NCBI GenBank assembly: GCA_016937035.1
Contig: JAFGWS010000183.1
Location: 1 to 9,744 of the forward strand
DNA from: Pontiellaceae bacterium
Lineage (GTDB): Bacteria > Verrucomicrobiota > Kiritimatiellia > Kiritimatiellales > Pontiellaceae
Direction: 5' to 3'
DNA length: 9,744 nt
Part shown: piece by piece, positions 4,697 through 8,699 of the stretch
How positions within the stretch are numbered: position 1 is the first letter of the stretch
Layout of the letters: each line of letters opens with the position of its first letter
Position numbers and translations under genes: made by a program
Notes under the pieces: model-generated
Told to the model about the DNA's origin: nothing
Databases searched by the model: none
The model's input: only the letters and a program-made list of their open reading frames with translations

Positions 4697-5650
4697 ATGA
4701 ATAAAGGCGATGAAAAATTAATATGGAGCGATCGGTGGCGATTGGGCGCACTCTCCAGAAATGAGGTGCTGAACATCTGTTTTGCCTCGATTCTCATTGG
4801 TTTTCTAATGGTGCTCTTTCATCTGTTGGGCAATCGGGTGGAAAATGTGGAGAGTGCGTCGGCGTTTAAATGGATGGTTGCTCGTTGGGCGGACCGGGAG
4901 TCGTTTGGTGAAGACTATTCGCACGGTTATCTGATTCCGTTCGTCAGCTTATGGGTGATTTGGCACAAGCGCAAGGAGTTCAGGAGCGTGCCGAAGAAGG
5001 TGTGCAGTTGGGGCTTGGTGGTGATTGTTTCTGCGCTTTTGCTCCACTGGCTTGGTGCCAAGGTGCAGCAGACGCGTATTTCGCTGATCAGTCTGATTAT
5101 GCTGATCTGGGGCATTCCGCTCTATTTTTGGGGTTGGGGCGTTGCTCGCCTGCTGATATTTCCGTGTGCCTATCTGATTTTTTGTGTGCCGCTGAATTTC
5201 CTGAATTCGATTTCCGGCCAGTTGCAGCGCATTGCGGTTGCGTTGGGGCATTCCGGGGTTGAGGCATTGGGGATTGAGTGCAGCCGACAGGGAAGTATGC
5301 TGGTTTCTCCATATTTCAGTTTCAATGTGGAAAAGGCGTGTTCCGGTCTGCGCTCTTTGTTGGCGATGACGGCTTTGACCGCGATTTATGCCTATTATAC
5401 GCAGACGCACATTATTAAACAGTGGCTGCTCTTCTGGCTCTGTATTCCAATTGCTGTGCTCGGAAATATTACGCGTATTATATCCATTGCTCTGGTTGCA
5501 GTGACGACCGGTCAGGAATATGCCGGCGGGCTTCACCATGACTGGGCCGGATATCTCTTTTTTGCGGTGGCGATCGCTGCCATGGTGGGTTGCGGAAAGT
5601 TGCTTTCACTGGATTATCGGAGAATGTTTTCTAAATGGAAAAGAGCCTAG
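4697..5650 (+). CDS. Exosortase (transpeptidase-like membrane sorting enzyme)
   Basis: Exosortases are inner-membrane cysteine enzymes thought to cut C-terminal sorting tags (PEP-CTERM and related) from exported proteins. The 317-residue product has about eight hydrophobic segments and the family signatures in order: DYSHGYLIPFVSLWVIW (73-89), catalytic Cys215 in EKACSGLRSL (212-221), the Arg motif GNITRI with Arg260, and His280/His281 in HHDWAGY. Cys, Arg and His are all present, so it should be active. The length fits the single-domain exosortase family, without the C-terminal EpsI fusion seen in some members. GAGGA lies 10 nt before the ATG. Its 3' end overlaps the EpsI-family gene by 16 nt. 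The subtype cannot be assigned by eye. No tagged substrate, and no polysaccharide locus of the kind often beside exosortases, is visible here. Confidence 0.92.
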   Translation: MNKGDEKLIWSDRWRLGALSRNEVLNICFASILIGFLMVLFHLLGNRVENVESASAFKWMVARWADRESFGEDYSHGYLIPFVSLWVIWHKRKEFRSVPKKVCSWGLVVIVSALLLHWLGAKVQQTRISLISLIMLIWGIPLYFWGWGVARLLIFPCAYLIFCVPLNFLNSISGQLQRIAVALGHSGVEALGIECSRQGSMLVSPYFSFNVEKACSGLRSLLAMTALTAIYAYYTQTHIIKQWLLFWLCIPIAVLGNITRIISIALVAVTTGQEYAGGLHHDWAGYLFFAVAIAAMVGCGKLLSLDYRRMFSKWKRA

Positions 5651-6405
5651 TTAAACCTTTTTTGATTGTTGTCGGATTGATGTCCGTTACGGCGCTGGCA
5701 CTCGCTTTTACTTGCGACGTTAAGCTCAATTTTACTCCCGGCGTAAAGATGGAGCTGCCTGAAGAACTGGACGGCTGGGTAGGAAATGAACTGCGGTTTT
5801 GTCATAATCCCGAGCTGTGCGCCAAAAATTATCAGAACGCCTCATTTTATGTGCGCGATCTTGAGGATTCAAATCGGTGCCCGAATTGCGGGTATGAATT
5901 GTTTAATATGACCCGATCGGAATATGAAGCATTGCCCAAGGATACGGAGTTTATCAAGTCAGCCTACACCAACGATCTGGGGCGAAGGGTTTTTGTTTCG
6001 ATTGTGTTGAGTGGAATGGAACGCGACAGTATTCATCGTCCGCAGCGCTGTCTGGTGGCACAGGGAAATGCGCTCGATCAGGAATATACGTTGGAGGTTC
6101 CGTTGGAGGGACGCGATCCATTAGAGATCAGGGTGATTAAAGCCTCGCGGCCGGGCGAAAATATTTATTATGCATATTGGTTTGTGGGGCAGGAACGGGA
6201 AACGCCTTCTCATTTAAGCCGCATGTTTTGGCTGGCGTGGGATCGCGTGGTACACAGCAAGGCGAGTCGTTGGGCCTATATTTCGGTTTCGGGTGATTGT
6301 GAGCCGGAGGGCAATGCGCATGAGGCCGAGATTAAGGACATTGTTCAGAAACTCTATCCGAAGCTCTTGACTGAATCGATGAGCAAAAAAGTGTACGGCG
6401 AATAA
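5635..6405 (+). CDS. Exosortase-associated EpsI-family protein with a four-cysteine insertion
   Basis: The 256-residue product has an N-terminal membrane anchor (~8-25) and an exported domain. The EpsI-domain hallmarks are LPEELDGWVG (41-50) and SGMERDSIHRPQRCLVAQG (126-144), including the conserved His134-Arg-Pro and Cys139. Its exact role is unsettled; the family accompanies exosortases and is thought to act with them outside the inner membrane. Unusually, residues 56-85 hold Cys56, Cys62, Cys82 and Cys85, the last pair in CPNCGYEL, resembling a zinc ribbon or rubredoxin knuckle. The gene overlaps the exosortase gene by 16 nt (5635-5650), with CGGAGA 11 nt before the ATG, a sign of translational coupling. 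A strong terminator follows 25 nt after the stop. No C-terminal sorting tag is seen on the protein itself. Confidence 0.85.
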   Translation: MEKSLVKPFLIVVGLMSVTALALAFTCDVKLNFTPGVKMELPEELDGWVGNELRFCHNPELCAKNYQNASFYVRDLEDSNRCPNCGYELFNMTRSEYEALPKDTEFIKSAYTNDLGRRVFVSIVLSGMERDSIHRPQRCLVAQGNALDQEYTLEVPLEGRDPLEIRVIKASRPGENIYYAYWFVGQERETPSHLSRMFWLAWDRVVHSKASRWAYISVSGDCEPEGNAHEAEIKDIVQKLYPKLLTESMSKKVYGE

Positions 6406-6422
6406 TCTTCCTGCCTTGGCAG

Positions 6423-6450
6423 TTGCGCCCGCCCGCAGTTTCTTTATACT
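6423..6450 (+). promoter_or_regulatory. Possible gatC promoter embedded in the upstream terminator
   Basis: TATACT (6445-6450, 5 of 6 consensus bases) lies across the loop and descending arm of the terminator hairpin, with TTGCGC (6423-6428, 3 of 6) 16 nt upstream. Initiation near 6457 would give a leader of roughly 23 nt before gatC. A promoter must lie somewhere here, because the hairpin leaves only 14 nt between its T-run and the gatC start. Confidence 0.35.
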
Positions 6451-6465
6451 GCGGGCTTTGTTTTT
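6431..6465 (+). terminator. Rho-independent terminator after the exosortase pair
   Basis: GCCCGCAG (6431-6438) pairs perfectly over 8 bp with CTGCGGGC (6449-6456) around a 10-nt loop, followed by TTTGTTTTT (6457-6465). It starts 25 nt after the EpsI-family stop codon and ends just before the gatC ribosome site, so it separates the two operons. Confidence 0.9.
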
Positions 6466-6479
6466 ATAGAGGAATATAA

Positions 6480-6776
6480 ATGGCTGAAAAAAATCAAGGA
6501 ATGGATGTCGGTTACGTCGCCAAGTTGGCGTGCATCAATCTGACCGACGAAGAAAAAACGCTTTTTCAGGGTCAGCTCGATCAGGTGCTGCAGTATGTCG
6601 AACAGCTCAACGAACTGGATGTGGACGGCGTTGAACCAACGGCTCATGCGATTCCGGTTTATAATGTGCTCCGCAAAGATGAGCTGGGCGAGAGTCTGGA
6701 TCACGATGCGGTAATGGCCAATGCGCCTTCCTCCGCCGATGGTCATGTCCGCGTTCCAAAAATTATTGATCAATAG
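6480..6776 (+). CDS. gatC: Aspartyl/glutamyl-tRNA amidotransferase subunit C
   Basis: GatC is the small subunit that wraps around GatA and stabilises the GatCAB complex. The 98-residue length is typical (~95). Family features are the helix VGYVAKLACINLTDEEKTLF (10-29), then QLDQVLQYVEQLNELDVDGVEPT (31-53), and the later LRKDELGESL segment. The start is well supported: AGAGGA lies 6 nt before the ATG. It is the first gene of gatC-gatA-gatB. The next reading frame is not gatA but a GxxExxY gene within an inverted-repeat cassette beginning 10 nt after the gatC stop, which pushes gatA 462 nt away. Confidence 0.93.
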   Translation: MAEKNQGMDVGYVAKLACINLTDEEKTLFQGQLDQVLQYVEQLNELDVDGVEPTAHAIPVYNVLRKDELGESLDHDAVMANAPSSADGHVRVPKIIDQ

Positions 6777-6785
6777 GGAGAATCG

Positions 6786-6816
6786 AACCACTAATTATCG
6801 CTAATCGACACTAGTT
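6786..6816 (+). repeat. Left inverted terminal repeat of the GxxExxY cassette
   Basis: The 31-nt segment matches the reverse complement of 7201-7231 at 26 positions, beginning with an identical 12-mer, AACCACTAATTA. Internally it is three 10-nt steps (from 6789, 6799 and 6809) built on YRCTAAT/CACTAGT, so like sites recur once per helical turn. The outer end lies 10 nt after the gatC stop. No target duplication could be identified beside it. Confidence 0.8.
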
Positions 6817-6835
6817 TTAACAGAAGGTGAACAGT

Positions 6836-7201
6836 ATGCTTGAGCAGGAAGGCTATGATCTGATGGGTGCGGCTTTTGAGGTATACAATGTGGAGGGCCA
6901 TGGATTTCTCGAAGATGTTTATCAGGAGTGTATGGAAGTAGAACTTTCTTTCCGCAACATTCCATTTGATGCTCAAAAGGAGCTCCTTTTGTACTACAAA
7001 GGGAAGCCTCTTCGTCAGAAATATATACCTGACTTCTTTGTGTTCGGTGAGATTATTGTGGAAATAAAGGCTGTAAAAAAGTTGCTTCCGGAGCATGAGG
7101 CGCAACTCATGAACTATCTCAAGGCAACGAGTAAACAGGTGGGTTATCTGATTAATTTCGGGAATACTTCTGAGTTGGAGTGGAAAAGGATCATAATCTG
7201 A
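6836..7201 (+). CDS. GxxExxY-family protein (PD-(D/E)XK nuclease-like)
   Basis: The 121-residue protein belongs to the GxxExxY family, a small PD-(D/E)XK-fold group of unknown physiological role. The name-giving motif is GFLEDVY, next to a conserved N-terminal helix (GYDLMGAAFEVYNVEGHG). The nuclease core follows: YIPDFFV with the acidic residue, then IVEIKAV as the ExK element, and the QLMNYLKAT helix. GYLINFG is the usual closing strand. All expected catalytic residues are present, so activity on nucleic acid is possible but unproven. I choose the ATG at 6836 because AGAAGG (6822-6827) lies 8 nt upstream; the in-frame GTG at 6827 would overlap that site. GC content is ~42% by hand count (152 of 360 bases over 6841-7200), well below the neighbouring gatA. 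It sits between gatC and gatA inside matching inverted repeats, so it looks like an inserted cassette. Confidence 0.88.
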   Translation: MLEQEGYDLMGAAFEVYNVEGHGFLEDVYQECMEVELSFRNIPFDAQKELLLYYKGKPLRQKYIPDFFVFGEIIVEIKAVKKLLPEHEAQLMNYLKATSKQVGYLINFGNTSELEWKRIII

Positions 7202-7231
7202 ATTAGTGAAGATTAGTGTTAATTAGTGGTT
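7201..7231 (-). repeat. Right inverted terminal repeat of the GxxExxY cassette
   Basis: This is the inverted partner of 6786-6816 (26 of 31 matches). On the plus strand it shows ATTAGTG three times at 10-nt spacing, ending at 7208, 7218 and 7228. It begins on the last base of the GxxExxY stop codon and ends 7 nt before the gatA ATG, occupying the place where a gatA ribosome site would be expected. Confidence 0.8.
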
Positions 7232-7238
7232 AAAAAAA

Positions 7239-8699
7239 ATGAATTTGAATGAGCTGACAATATCGAAACTCTCTGAAAAGCTGGCGAACGGCGAGTGCAC
7301 CTCGGTGGATATCGTTAACGATGTGCTGGCCGCGATTGATGTGCGCGATGCAAAGATCGGGGCATACCTGACCATTGACCGCGAGTCTGCACTGGAGCAG
7401 GCGCGGGCTGCGGATGCTGCGCGGGCCGAGGGAAAAAAACATCCGCTGCTCGGTATTCCGGTGGCCATTAAGGATCTGCTGAATGTGAAGGGGCAGCCCT
7501 GCACCTGTTCGTCTAAAATTTTAGAGGGTTATACGGCTCCGTATGACGCCACCGTAATTGCCAAGCTGCGCGAAGCCGGTGCGGTGCTGCTGGGGCGTGT
7601 AAACATGGATGAGTTTGCCATGGGTTCGAGTACGGAAAACGCCGCGCTTGGAAAGACCTCCAACCCGTGGAATTTGGACCACGTTCCCGGCGGTTCCTCC
7701 GGCGGTTCCGCGGCCTCCGTTGCTGCCGATGAAGCGATCTGTTCGCTGGGCTCCGACACCGGCGGATCGATTCGCCAGCCGGCGGCGTTTTGTGGATGCG
7801 TCGGCGTTAAGCCGACCTACGGGCGTGTTTCGCGTTACGGACTGACCGCTTTTGCTTCCTCGCTCGACCAGATCGGTCCGCTGTCCAAAACGGTGAAGGA
7901 TTCCGCCATTCTGCTTGAAACGCTCTGCGGCCTGGATGCCAAGGATTCTTCGTCGATCGATATGGAGGTGCCTGCGTTTTCGGCCGCGCTGGGAGCGGAG
8001 ACGTCGCTCAAAGGGATGAAGCTGGGTCTGCCGAAGGAATATTTTGTGGACGGCATGGATCCCGAAATTGAGAAATCGGTGCGCGATGCGGTGGAACACT
8101 GCAAAAACCTCGGAGCGGAAATTGTGGAGGTGAGTCTGCCCAACGCAAAATATGCGATTGCGGTTTACTACATTATCGCAACCGCGGAGGCCTCGGCCAA
8201 TCTGGCGCGATTCGACGGTATTCGTTACGGCATGCGCCTCGACGGGAAAGACCCGGCTGAGCTGTATGGAAAAACCCGCGCGGCCGGATTTGGATCGGAA
8301 GTGAAGCGCCGTATTATTCTGGGCACCTACGTGCTGAGCAGCGGCTACTATGACGCGTACTACCTGAAAGCACAGAAGGTGCGTACGCTGATCCGTAACG
8401 ATTTCACAGAAGCGTTCAAGCAGTGCGACGCCATTCTGGCTCCGGTTACGCCGACCGCAGCCTATCGAAAGGGCGAAAAAACCGCCGACCCGCTGAAAAT
8501 GTATCTCGACGACATTCTGACCACGCCGATTAACCTTGCAGGAAACTGTGCGCTTTCGCTGCCGTGCGGTTTTACCTCAAACGGAATGCCGATCGGACTT
8601 CAGATTATCGGCGATGCCTTTAAGGAAGAGACCATTCTCAACGTCGGCCACGCCTACGAACAGACGACAGAGTGGCATAGATTGAAACCTGAAATTTGA
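7239..8699 (+). CDS. gatA: Aspartyl/glutamyl-tRNA amidotransferase subunit A (amidase)
   Basis: GatA hydrolyses glutamine and passes the ammonia through a tunnel to GatB, which amidates misacylated Glu-tRNA(Gln) or Asp-tRNA(Asn). The 486-residue length is normal. The amidase-signature Ser-cisSer-Lys triad is intact and one residue off the S. aureus numbering: Lys78 in VAIKDL, Ser153 in PGGSSGGSAA, and Ser177 in GSDTGGSIRQPA. KPTYGRVSRYGL and SLDQIGP follow as in other GatA proteins. The start MNLNELTISKLSEKL matches family N-termini. It has no recognisable ribosome site: the bases before the ATG are a poly-A run after the right cassette repeat. Translation may rely on coupling or an A-rich leader. 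The end, HRLKPEI, is family-like and overlaps a 7-nt tandem repeat. Confidence 0.97.
   Translation: MNLNELTISKLSEKLANGECTSVDIVNDVLAAIDVRDAKIGAYLTIDRESALEQARAADAARAEGKKHPLLGIPVAIKDLLNVKGQPCTCSSKILEGYTAPYDATVIAKLREAGAVLLGRVNMDEFAMGSSTENAALGKTSNPWNLDHVPGGSSGGSAASVAADEAICSLGSDTGGSIRQPAAFCGCVGVKPTYGRVSRYGLTAFASSLDQIGPLSKTVKDSAILLETLCGLDAKDSSSIDMEVPAFSAALGAETSLKGMKLGLPKEYFVDGMDPEIEKSVRDAVEHCKNLGAEIVEVSLPNAKYAIAVYYIIATAEASANLARFDGIRYGMRLDGKDPAELYGKTRAAGFGSEVKRRIILGTYVLSSGYYDAYYLKAQKVRTLIRNDFTEAFKQCDAILAPVTPTAAYRKGEKTADPLKMYLDDILTTPINLAGNCALSLPCGFTSNGMPIGLQIIGDAFKEETILNVGHAYEQTTEWHRLKPEI

Follow-up and report, generated by a model that had tools for sequence, protein, structure and literature searches.

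In REPIN/RAYT systems, inverted extragenic doublets form repeat classes that are tied to particular enzymes, and these enzymes are encoded by distinctive single-copy genes (PMC3116915, as excerpted); enzyme and repeat co-evolve (PMC8266576, as excerpted). GTAG- and CGTC-tagged REPs of Planctomycetes and Verrucomicrobia are a different repeat form (excerpt of PMC3733652). The intervening sequences of 23S rRNA contain an S23/four-helix-bundle ORF framed by complementary ends (excerpt of PMC4990558). GxxExxY is a named protein family without known function. In the literature, searched mainly as open-access text, its name appeared in 2 of 5.39 million papers, once in each and only in passing, and a GxxExxY-repeat system was absent among the matches listed for PDDEXK_3/PF13366, repeats, rRNA inserts and four-helix-bundle proteins. 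A GxxExxY-gene-plus-array system, as proposed below, would be previously unrecognised, although an earlier description is possible.

In the 9,744-nt stretch of DNA analysed here (the window), a GxxExxY gene framed by short repeat arrays lies between gatC and gatA. The features of the locus are as follows:

6480..6776, + strand: gatC (TIGR00135), the upstream neighbour of the cassette.
6786..6816, + strand: left arm with three units at 10-nt spacing, CACTAAT (6789-6795), CGCTAAT (6799-6805) and CACTAGT (6809-6815); array score 15.
6836..7201, + strand: GxxExxY gene, 121 aa, predicted PD-(D/E)XK fold, with residues E26, D66, E76, K78, Q90 and Y94.
7201..7231, + strand: right arm with three units inverted relative to the left arm, all ATTAGTG (7202-7208, 7212-7218, 7222-7228); array score 21.
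7239..8699, + strand: gatA (TIGR00132), the downstream neighbour of the cassette.

An earlier note on this DNA had described 31-nt inverted repeats matching at 26 of 31 positions, each composed of three CACTAAT-like units at 10-nt spacing. Both statements were confirmed: the two arms, 384 nt apart, are complementary at 26/31, and coordinates could be given for all six units. With ATG 6836 taken as the start of the gene (the alternative GTG 6827 would add 3 aa), the start codon follows the end of the left arm by 19 nt, and because the ORF ends at 7201, the last base of its stop codon is also the first base of the right arm. None of 2000 dinucleotide shuffles of both flanks attained the inverted-repeat score of 16 (maximum, 11), and the array scores were matched in 0/1000 shuffles each (maxima, 13.5 for the left and 15 for the right array); a chance origin of arms and arrays was rejected. 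Elsewhere in the window, no CRCTRAT pairs were found. As the same note had estimated, the GC content of the GxxExxY ORF (42%) is lower than that of gatA (56%); gatC has 50%. Farther upstream, an exosortase (TIGR02602, above cut-off) and then an EpsI-like protein (below cut-off) occupy positions 4697-6405, and a terminator-like stem is located at 6431-6456, ahead of gatC.

The window protein matched PF13366 with 138.3 bits (cut-off, 22; 1.9e-40) and TIGR04256 with 137.9 bits (cut-off, 35; 1.8e-40). The domain search of this protein found only PF13366, and no HUH (Y1) transposase domain. Its closest named relative is from Pontiella desulfatans (82%), which makes an origin of the window in the Kiritimatiellales probable, and 854 homologs were recovered with it at 1e-3. 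The top fold matches of a structure model (pLDDT 96.1) were nucleases, the best PDB match being 4ic1 (SSO0001), which we take to be a Cas4; a search for solved structures related by sequence gave none at E up to 1. In an alignment of 67 proteins, D66 was invariant, and E76 and K78 were conserved at ≥90%; D, ExK and QxxxY are presumably the conserved nuclease motifs of the protein. By its model and its conserved motif residues, the protein is thus a predicted minimal Cas4/RecB-like PD-(D/E)XK nuclease, and the earlier assignment to this fold, in a cassette without a transposase, holds. PADLOC gave a weak Cas4 match (E 0.021). Cas4 proteins have four cysteines for an iron-sulphur cluster. The 121-aa protein contains a single cysteine and therefore lacks such a four-cysteine site.

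No phage record matched the protein at 1e-5, no match in viral contigs was confirmed, and among 72,556 plasmid records there were 8 matches, all typed non-mobilizable, from Spirochaetota, Bacteroidota, Fusobacteriota, Gemmatimonadota and Pseudomonadota. On these grounds we rejected phage or conjugative cargo; a single GxxExxY protein listed for an algal virus (excerpt of PMC12085832) counts against this rejection. Clear inverted arms flanked 2 of the 8 plasmid matches, from Bacteroides (score 21) and Bernardetia (score 16), and the other 6 scored 6-11, with some arrays one-sided or direct by eye. At a Prevotella nigrescens locus (L346, ~1956-2381), ACAAAT-type units with ~10-nt spacing were present on both sides of the gene, and by eye these were direct, not inverted.

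GatC was found in 39 of the 43 genomes of the order of G001, and 30 of these loci were examined. Twenty had only a short gap of 3-16 nt between gatC and gatA, 4 contained a GxxExxY cassette, 2 contained gene-less arrays (L190 and L193), 1 retained a short remnant (L194), and 3 carried other inserts (L170, L183 and L197). Besides these 30, the window and L002 have filled junctions. Empty sites, for which the earlier note had proposed to check close relatives, were therefore frequent (20/30). The last codon of GatC and the start of gatA are separated by 466 nt in the window, compared with 3-16 nt at those sites, and the note's description of an interrupted, usually tight operon was accurate. In L190, the left array is largely preserved and is followed by the gene's final bases and the right array, a state resembling that after an internal deletion of the cassette. 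In the relative whose GatC is most similar (94%), the junction carries a different ORF of 126 aa (L170:1081-1479, - strand), without CACTAAT arrays; this ORF looks to us like a retroviral-type (DTG) aspartic protease.

In a GatCA tree, from which L181, L184 and L196 were left out for their short GatA, filled sites were scattered among empty ones. Moreover, GxxExxY identities did not track GatCA identities (0.85 versus 0.83 for L174-L189; 0.74 versus 0.91 for L174-L171). Both results led us to reject a strictly vertical old gene. The gene appears either to have entered the junction repeatedly or to have been lost from it repeatedly after an old entry; with the weak internal support of the GxxExxY tree (0.55 and 0.16), either history may apply. 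Judging from the junctions compared, the gene is apparently dispensable at gatC-gatA. For the pair L002-L003, dN was 0.032 and dS was 1.12; other pairs were saturated, and L174 was left out.

To describe the surroundings of GxxExxY genes more widely, we used the best 80 of at least 580 confirmed stretches in genome contigs, mostly from Verrucomicrobiota/Planctomycetota; together with the window and copies from 20 whole genomes, they provided 156 distinct copies. In the 120-nt flanks of 81 loci, identical 7-mers at lag 10 were counted 101 times upstream and 76 times downstream versus 3.75 expected from control windows. Counts were also raised at lag 20 (64 and 28 versus 0.3) and lag 21 (33 and 30 versus 6), and weakly at lag 11 (11 and 9 versus 3.75). 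Arrays scoring ≥14 were present in 91/147 upstream and 81/144 downstream flanks, compared with 19/847 control windows. After removal of copies with <80 nt of flank, inverted arms scoring ≥14 were found in 104/156 distinct copies; the remaining 52 were below threshold, partly from missing flank. The association seen in the window thus recurs, with repeats and GxxExxY genes co-occurring in many genomes. Nor were relatives uniform in gene and spacing, as their junctions were empty, filled or occupied by gene-less arrays. According to a crude gene caller, a same-strand gene preceded the GxxExxY gene in 96/114 copies (those with a neighbour >600 nt away are left out), and insertion sites fell inside operon-like gene runs. 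Named neighbours in annotated matches were mostly housekeeping genes, and no cas genes adjoin the gene in the window. Since many different genes adjoin the elements elsewhere, a gatCAB-specific element was rejected.

Both arrays were called in 64 of 137 copies, and 50 of these shared their units. Between the arms of these 50 copies, units agreed at 985/1050 positions and spacers at 104/204. In the 29 copies with strict 10-10 spacing, spacers agreed at 86/174 positions versus 48 when loci were re-paired, and 0/2000 re-pairings were as high. The units are kept and the spacers exceed the re-pairing level, so the arms seemingly start as true inverted copies of which only the units are then held. 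The six gatC-gatA elements behaved likewise (units, 124/126; spacers, 16/36). Held units with drifting spacers are the behaviour of a sequence-read signal, not of a continuous RNA stem. Transition mismatches between arms were skewed, with 60 keeping a sense G-U pair and 93 not (p 0.009; 104 copies); antisense pairing or mutational asymmetry could be the cause.

Several unit words can occur in one genome together with several protein types (CACGAAA, CACGAAT and ACAGGAT in G006), and one unit word recurs across genomes alongside related proteins. Protein distance and unit distance, compared for 90 short copies (55 genomes), were correlated with a rho of 0.51 (maximum of 1000 permutations, 0.21). 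In 39 of 49 comparisons, the nearest protein elsewhere had a closer unit than siblings from the same genome; the opposite was found in 8, and 2 were ties. By these comparisons, the unit sequence apparently tracks the protein more than the host. Gene and arms are, however, co-inherited, and the distance correlation alone is therefore a sign of linkage rather than recognition. Array architecture, in relation to protein length, is the stronger sign of putative recognition. Among proteins of <170 aa, the period was 8-11 nt in 84/90 and a third unit was present in 79/90, whereas all 14 longer proteins had a period of 14-20 nt (8-11 nt in 0/14) and only 2 had a third unit; periods were called automatically in the range 8-21 nt, and odd units were picked in a few copies. 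Two domains were detected in 5/14 long proteins with our own profile, and an NCBIfam scan of 7 long proteins revealed two TIGR04256 stretches in 3. At one locus (L163:1102-2265), an open frame of 388 aa encodes two GxxExxY domains, and the arms have two units each. The helical phasing that had been proposed for the repeats fits the 10-nt period of the window's subfamily, but other subfamilies have periods of 8-9 or 14-20 nt, and "helically phased" is therefore no general rule.

Arrays were also abundant away from the gene. CRCTRAT triple arrays occurred in 16/20 whole genomes, at 1 to 118 per genome, and the reversed control pattern had 0 matches in the same 20 genomes. Many gene-less arrays are inverted pairs only 10-60 nt apart, too close to enclose a gene. 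The genome with 118 arrays (G007) had 2 GxxExxY matches, and many of its arrays were arranged in regularly spaced clusters (e.g., G007:C169:459172-468558). Array matches were intergenic in 79/82 cases (66 distinct contexts, 56 fetched loci), with 23% of the DNA there non-coding by the crude caller. In the order of G001 (43 genomes), the 6 genomes with a homolog of ≥60% identity contained 8-36 CRCTRAT arrays and the other 37 contained 0-13, with none in 18 of them; the difference was significant (Mann-Whitney p 5e-5, and 8e-5 after subtraction of the gene's own two arms). G021 (12 arrays) and G052 (13 arrays) had CRCTRAT arrays with no matching gene found.

Other unit words behaved similarly. 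Among the 20 genomes, CGCTTAA arrays were found only in G016 (14 arrays), which was also the sole one with a CGCTTAA-type gene found. Among the 387 genomes of its phylum, such arrays were present in 5 and a gene with CGCTTAA arms in G016 and G420; G217 (9 arrays), G073 (2) and G206 (1) had arrays and no such gene found. G217 and G206 had no protein match at 1e-40, and the best protein match of G073 carries CGCTAAT arrays in its flanks. The reversed CGCTTAA control matched in 1/387 genomes (G235, 3 per strand). CRCAGAT arrays occurred in 12/20 genomes, mostly in G012 (46), G008 (23), G015 (21) and G020 (13); CGCAGAT-type copies were present in the first three, and none was called in G020. G016 has a CGCAGAT-type copy with an altered middle unit and no CRCAGAT arrays. 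The tie between arrays and gene is strong but has exceptions, as it would if arrays persisted longer than their genes.

No target-site duplication was detected in 73 elements, in which direct repeats were no longer than chance (6 or 7 nt in 2/73). Within genomes, 0/135 pairs of gene copies with called arms were ≥80% identical, and 8 were ≥60%. These results and the lack of a cassette transposase led us to reject a plain insertion sequence, and the absence of target-site duplications and young gene duplicates argues that the gene cassette is not an active cut-and-paste element. The earlier proposal of a minimal mobile unit is consequently supported in part: the gene-less array pairs look as if they were dispersing, while the gene-bearing cassettes have neither of these marks. 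Its suggestion of repeat recognition by the protein has indirect support, as both the unit sequence and the geometry of the arrays track the protein; the binding itself is what we infer from this. We consider it probable that the cassette represents, within a REPIN-like nuclease/repeat system, the copy that carries the gene. In such a system, the GxxExxY nuclease would have a signal of its own, made of short, regularly spaced units in arrays that frame the gene in opposite orientations. Several protomers would bind a cognate array in register, each shifted by one unit from the next, and the nuclease may nick, cut or remodel the DNA there. Over time, array pairs would move or be copied while the gene remains as one distinctive copy per type, leaving gene-less inverted pairs of the matching kind dispersed between genes in REPIN-like fashion. 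Arrays without a matching gene count against this interpretation, as do the missing target-site duplications, the missing near-identical gene copies and the 52 copies below the arm threshold. So does co-inheritance, which explains part of the tie between unit and protein.

Arrays on both sides of the gene, units conserved while spacers drift, and the frequent same-strand gene upstream would also suit operators, through which either a host regulator or GxxExxY itself would control transcription of the gene and its neighbours with no role in mobility. Such a function is unlikely, since arrays are also found downstream as well as at many sites that lack the gene, and rarely (4/73) in the facing-promoter position between divergent genes. 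In addition, a promoter search of 6400-7500 gave nothing on the + strand and a single match on the - strand (shuffle mean, 1.6). If, instead, the arms paired in the operon transcript and were processed (e.g., by RNase III), the insert might do little harm, like the intervening sequences of 23S rRNA. Indeed, the arms pair in the predicted fold of the sense RNA from 6777-7238 (z -5.4), the insertions are situated in operon-like runs of genes, and terminal stems of 28 bp are described for a Coxiella intervening sequence (excerpt of PMC4990558). However, the spacers lose pairing while the units are kept, the transition mismatches reveal no sense-strand G-U preference (60 compatible, 93 not), Rfam gave no match in 6300-7700 at E up to 1, and gene-less arrays exist away from the gene. 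We rejected a continuous RNA stem because of the drifting spacers and missing G-U bias; the arms may still pair in RNA, given their predicted fold, but processing as the explanation of the arrays seems improbable.

Arrays in genomes with no matching gene found, together with the gene-less junctions of L190 and L193, are what one would expect of an independent miniature repeat family that is moved by another host enzyme and contains GxxExxY genes only by accident. Accidental capture is hard to reconcile with a unit sequence and an array period that track the protein, including its length class, or with several unit types pairing with several protein types in one genome, and we judge it quite unlikely. 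Finally, the Cas4-like fold of the model and the weak PADLOC match could indicate a stand-alone defence or DNA-capture nuclease, with the arrays as memory or target. As the arrays have no long spacers, the named neighbours are mostly housekeeping genes, and phage, viral and plasmid sequences yielded almost no matches, we give this very little credence. The REPIN-like nuclease/repeat system thus remains our preferred interpretation.

A parallel gene-plus-repeat system was observed at the 30 best-scoring TIGR02436 four-helix-bundle loci (L230-L259) from the 20 whole genomes, which had 7-nt-period arrays, often inverted between the two sides. Counts in their flanks at lags 7, 14, 21 and 28 were 173, 146, 97 and 96 versus 14, 9, 4 and 2 in control windows, with only 11/30 loci clearly positive. 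It is possible, though we propose it tentatively, that GxxExxY and four-helix-bundle proteins are the readers of a large undescribed class of repeat systems, in which each lineage has its own unit word, number and spacing, and gene-less pairs spread under the action of the protein. The matching repeat code gives the GxxExxY family a concrete, testable role. If correct, the proposal would account for the intergenic repeats with 8-10 nt periodicity in many Verrucomicrobiota/Planctomycetota, and for those beside Bacteroides GxxExxY genes; the REPIN way of life would then have been reached a second time, independently, and the range of unit/protein pairs in nature would provide a data set on DNA reading by a tiny nuclease-fold protein.

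Compared with known systems, the cassette shares with insertion sequences and MITEs a single gene between terminal inverted repeats and the existence of shorter gene-less derivatives (L190). Unlike insertion sequences, it has no known transposase, target-site duplication or near-identical copies within a genome. With the 23S rRNA intervening sequences, as far as the excerpted account describes them, it has in common a small ORF, complementary ends and a length of about 430-450 nt, and four-helix-bundle genes in the present genomes are also flanked by arrays. In contrast to those sequences, it is located between protein genes, encodes a PF13366 nuclease-fold protein and has phased units with drifting spacers. 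Its modelled protein resembles Cas4/RecB nucleases in fold (4ic1) and in the D, ExK and QxxxY residues, and differs from Cas4 in its 121 aa, its one cysteine and the lack of adjoining cas genes. RAYTs are HUH tyrosine transposases and REPs are palindromic hairpins, whereas the enzyme here is a predicted PD-(D/E)XK nuclease, the repeats are non-palindromic 7-nt units at fixed spacing, and the gene is framed at both ends. Because enzyme class and repeat form differ, the GxxExxY system is not a member of REPIN/RAYT. By analogy, REPIN/RAYT nevertheless appears to be its closest counterpart: as in the excerpted descriptions of those systems, inverted doublets lie between genes, clusters and tandem copies occur, repeat classes are tied to enzymes, and the enzyme gene is distinctive.
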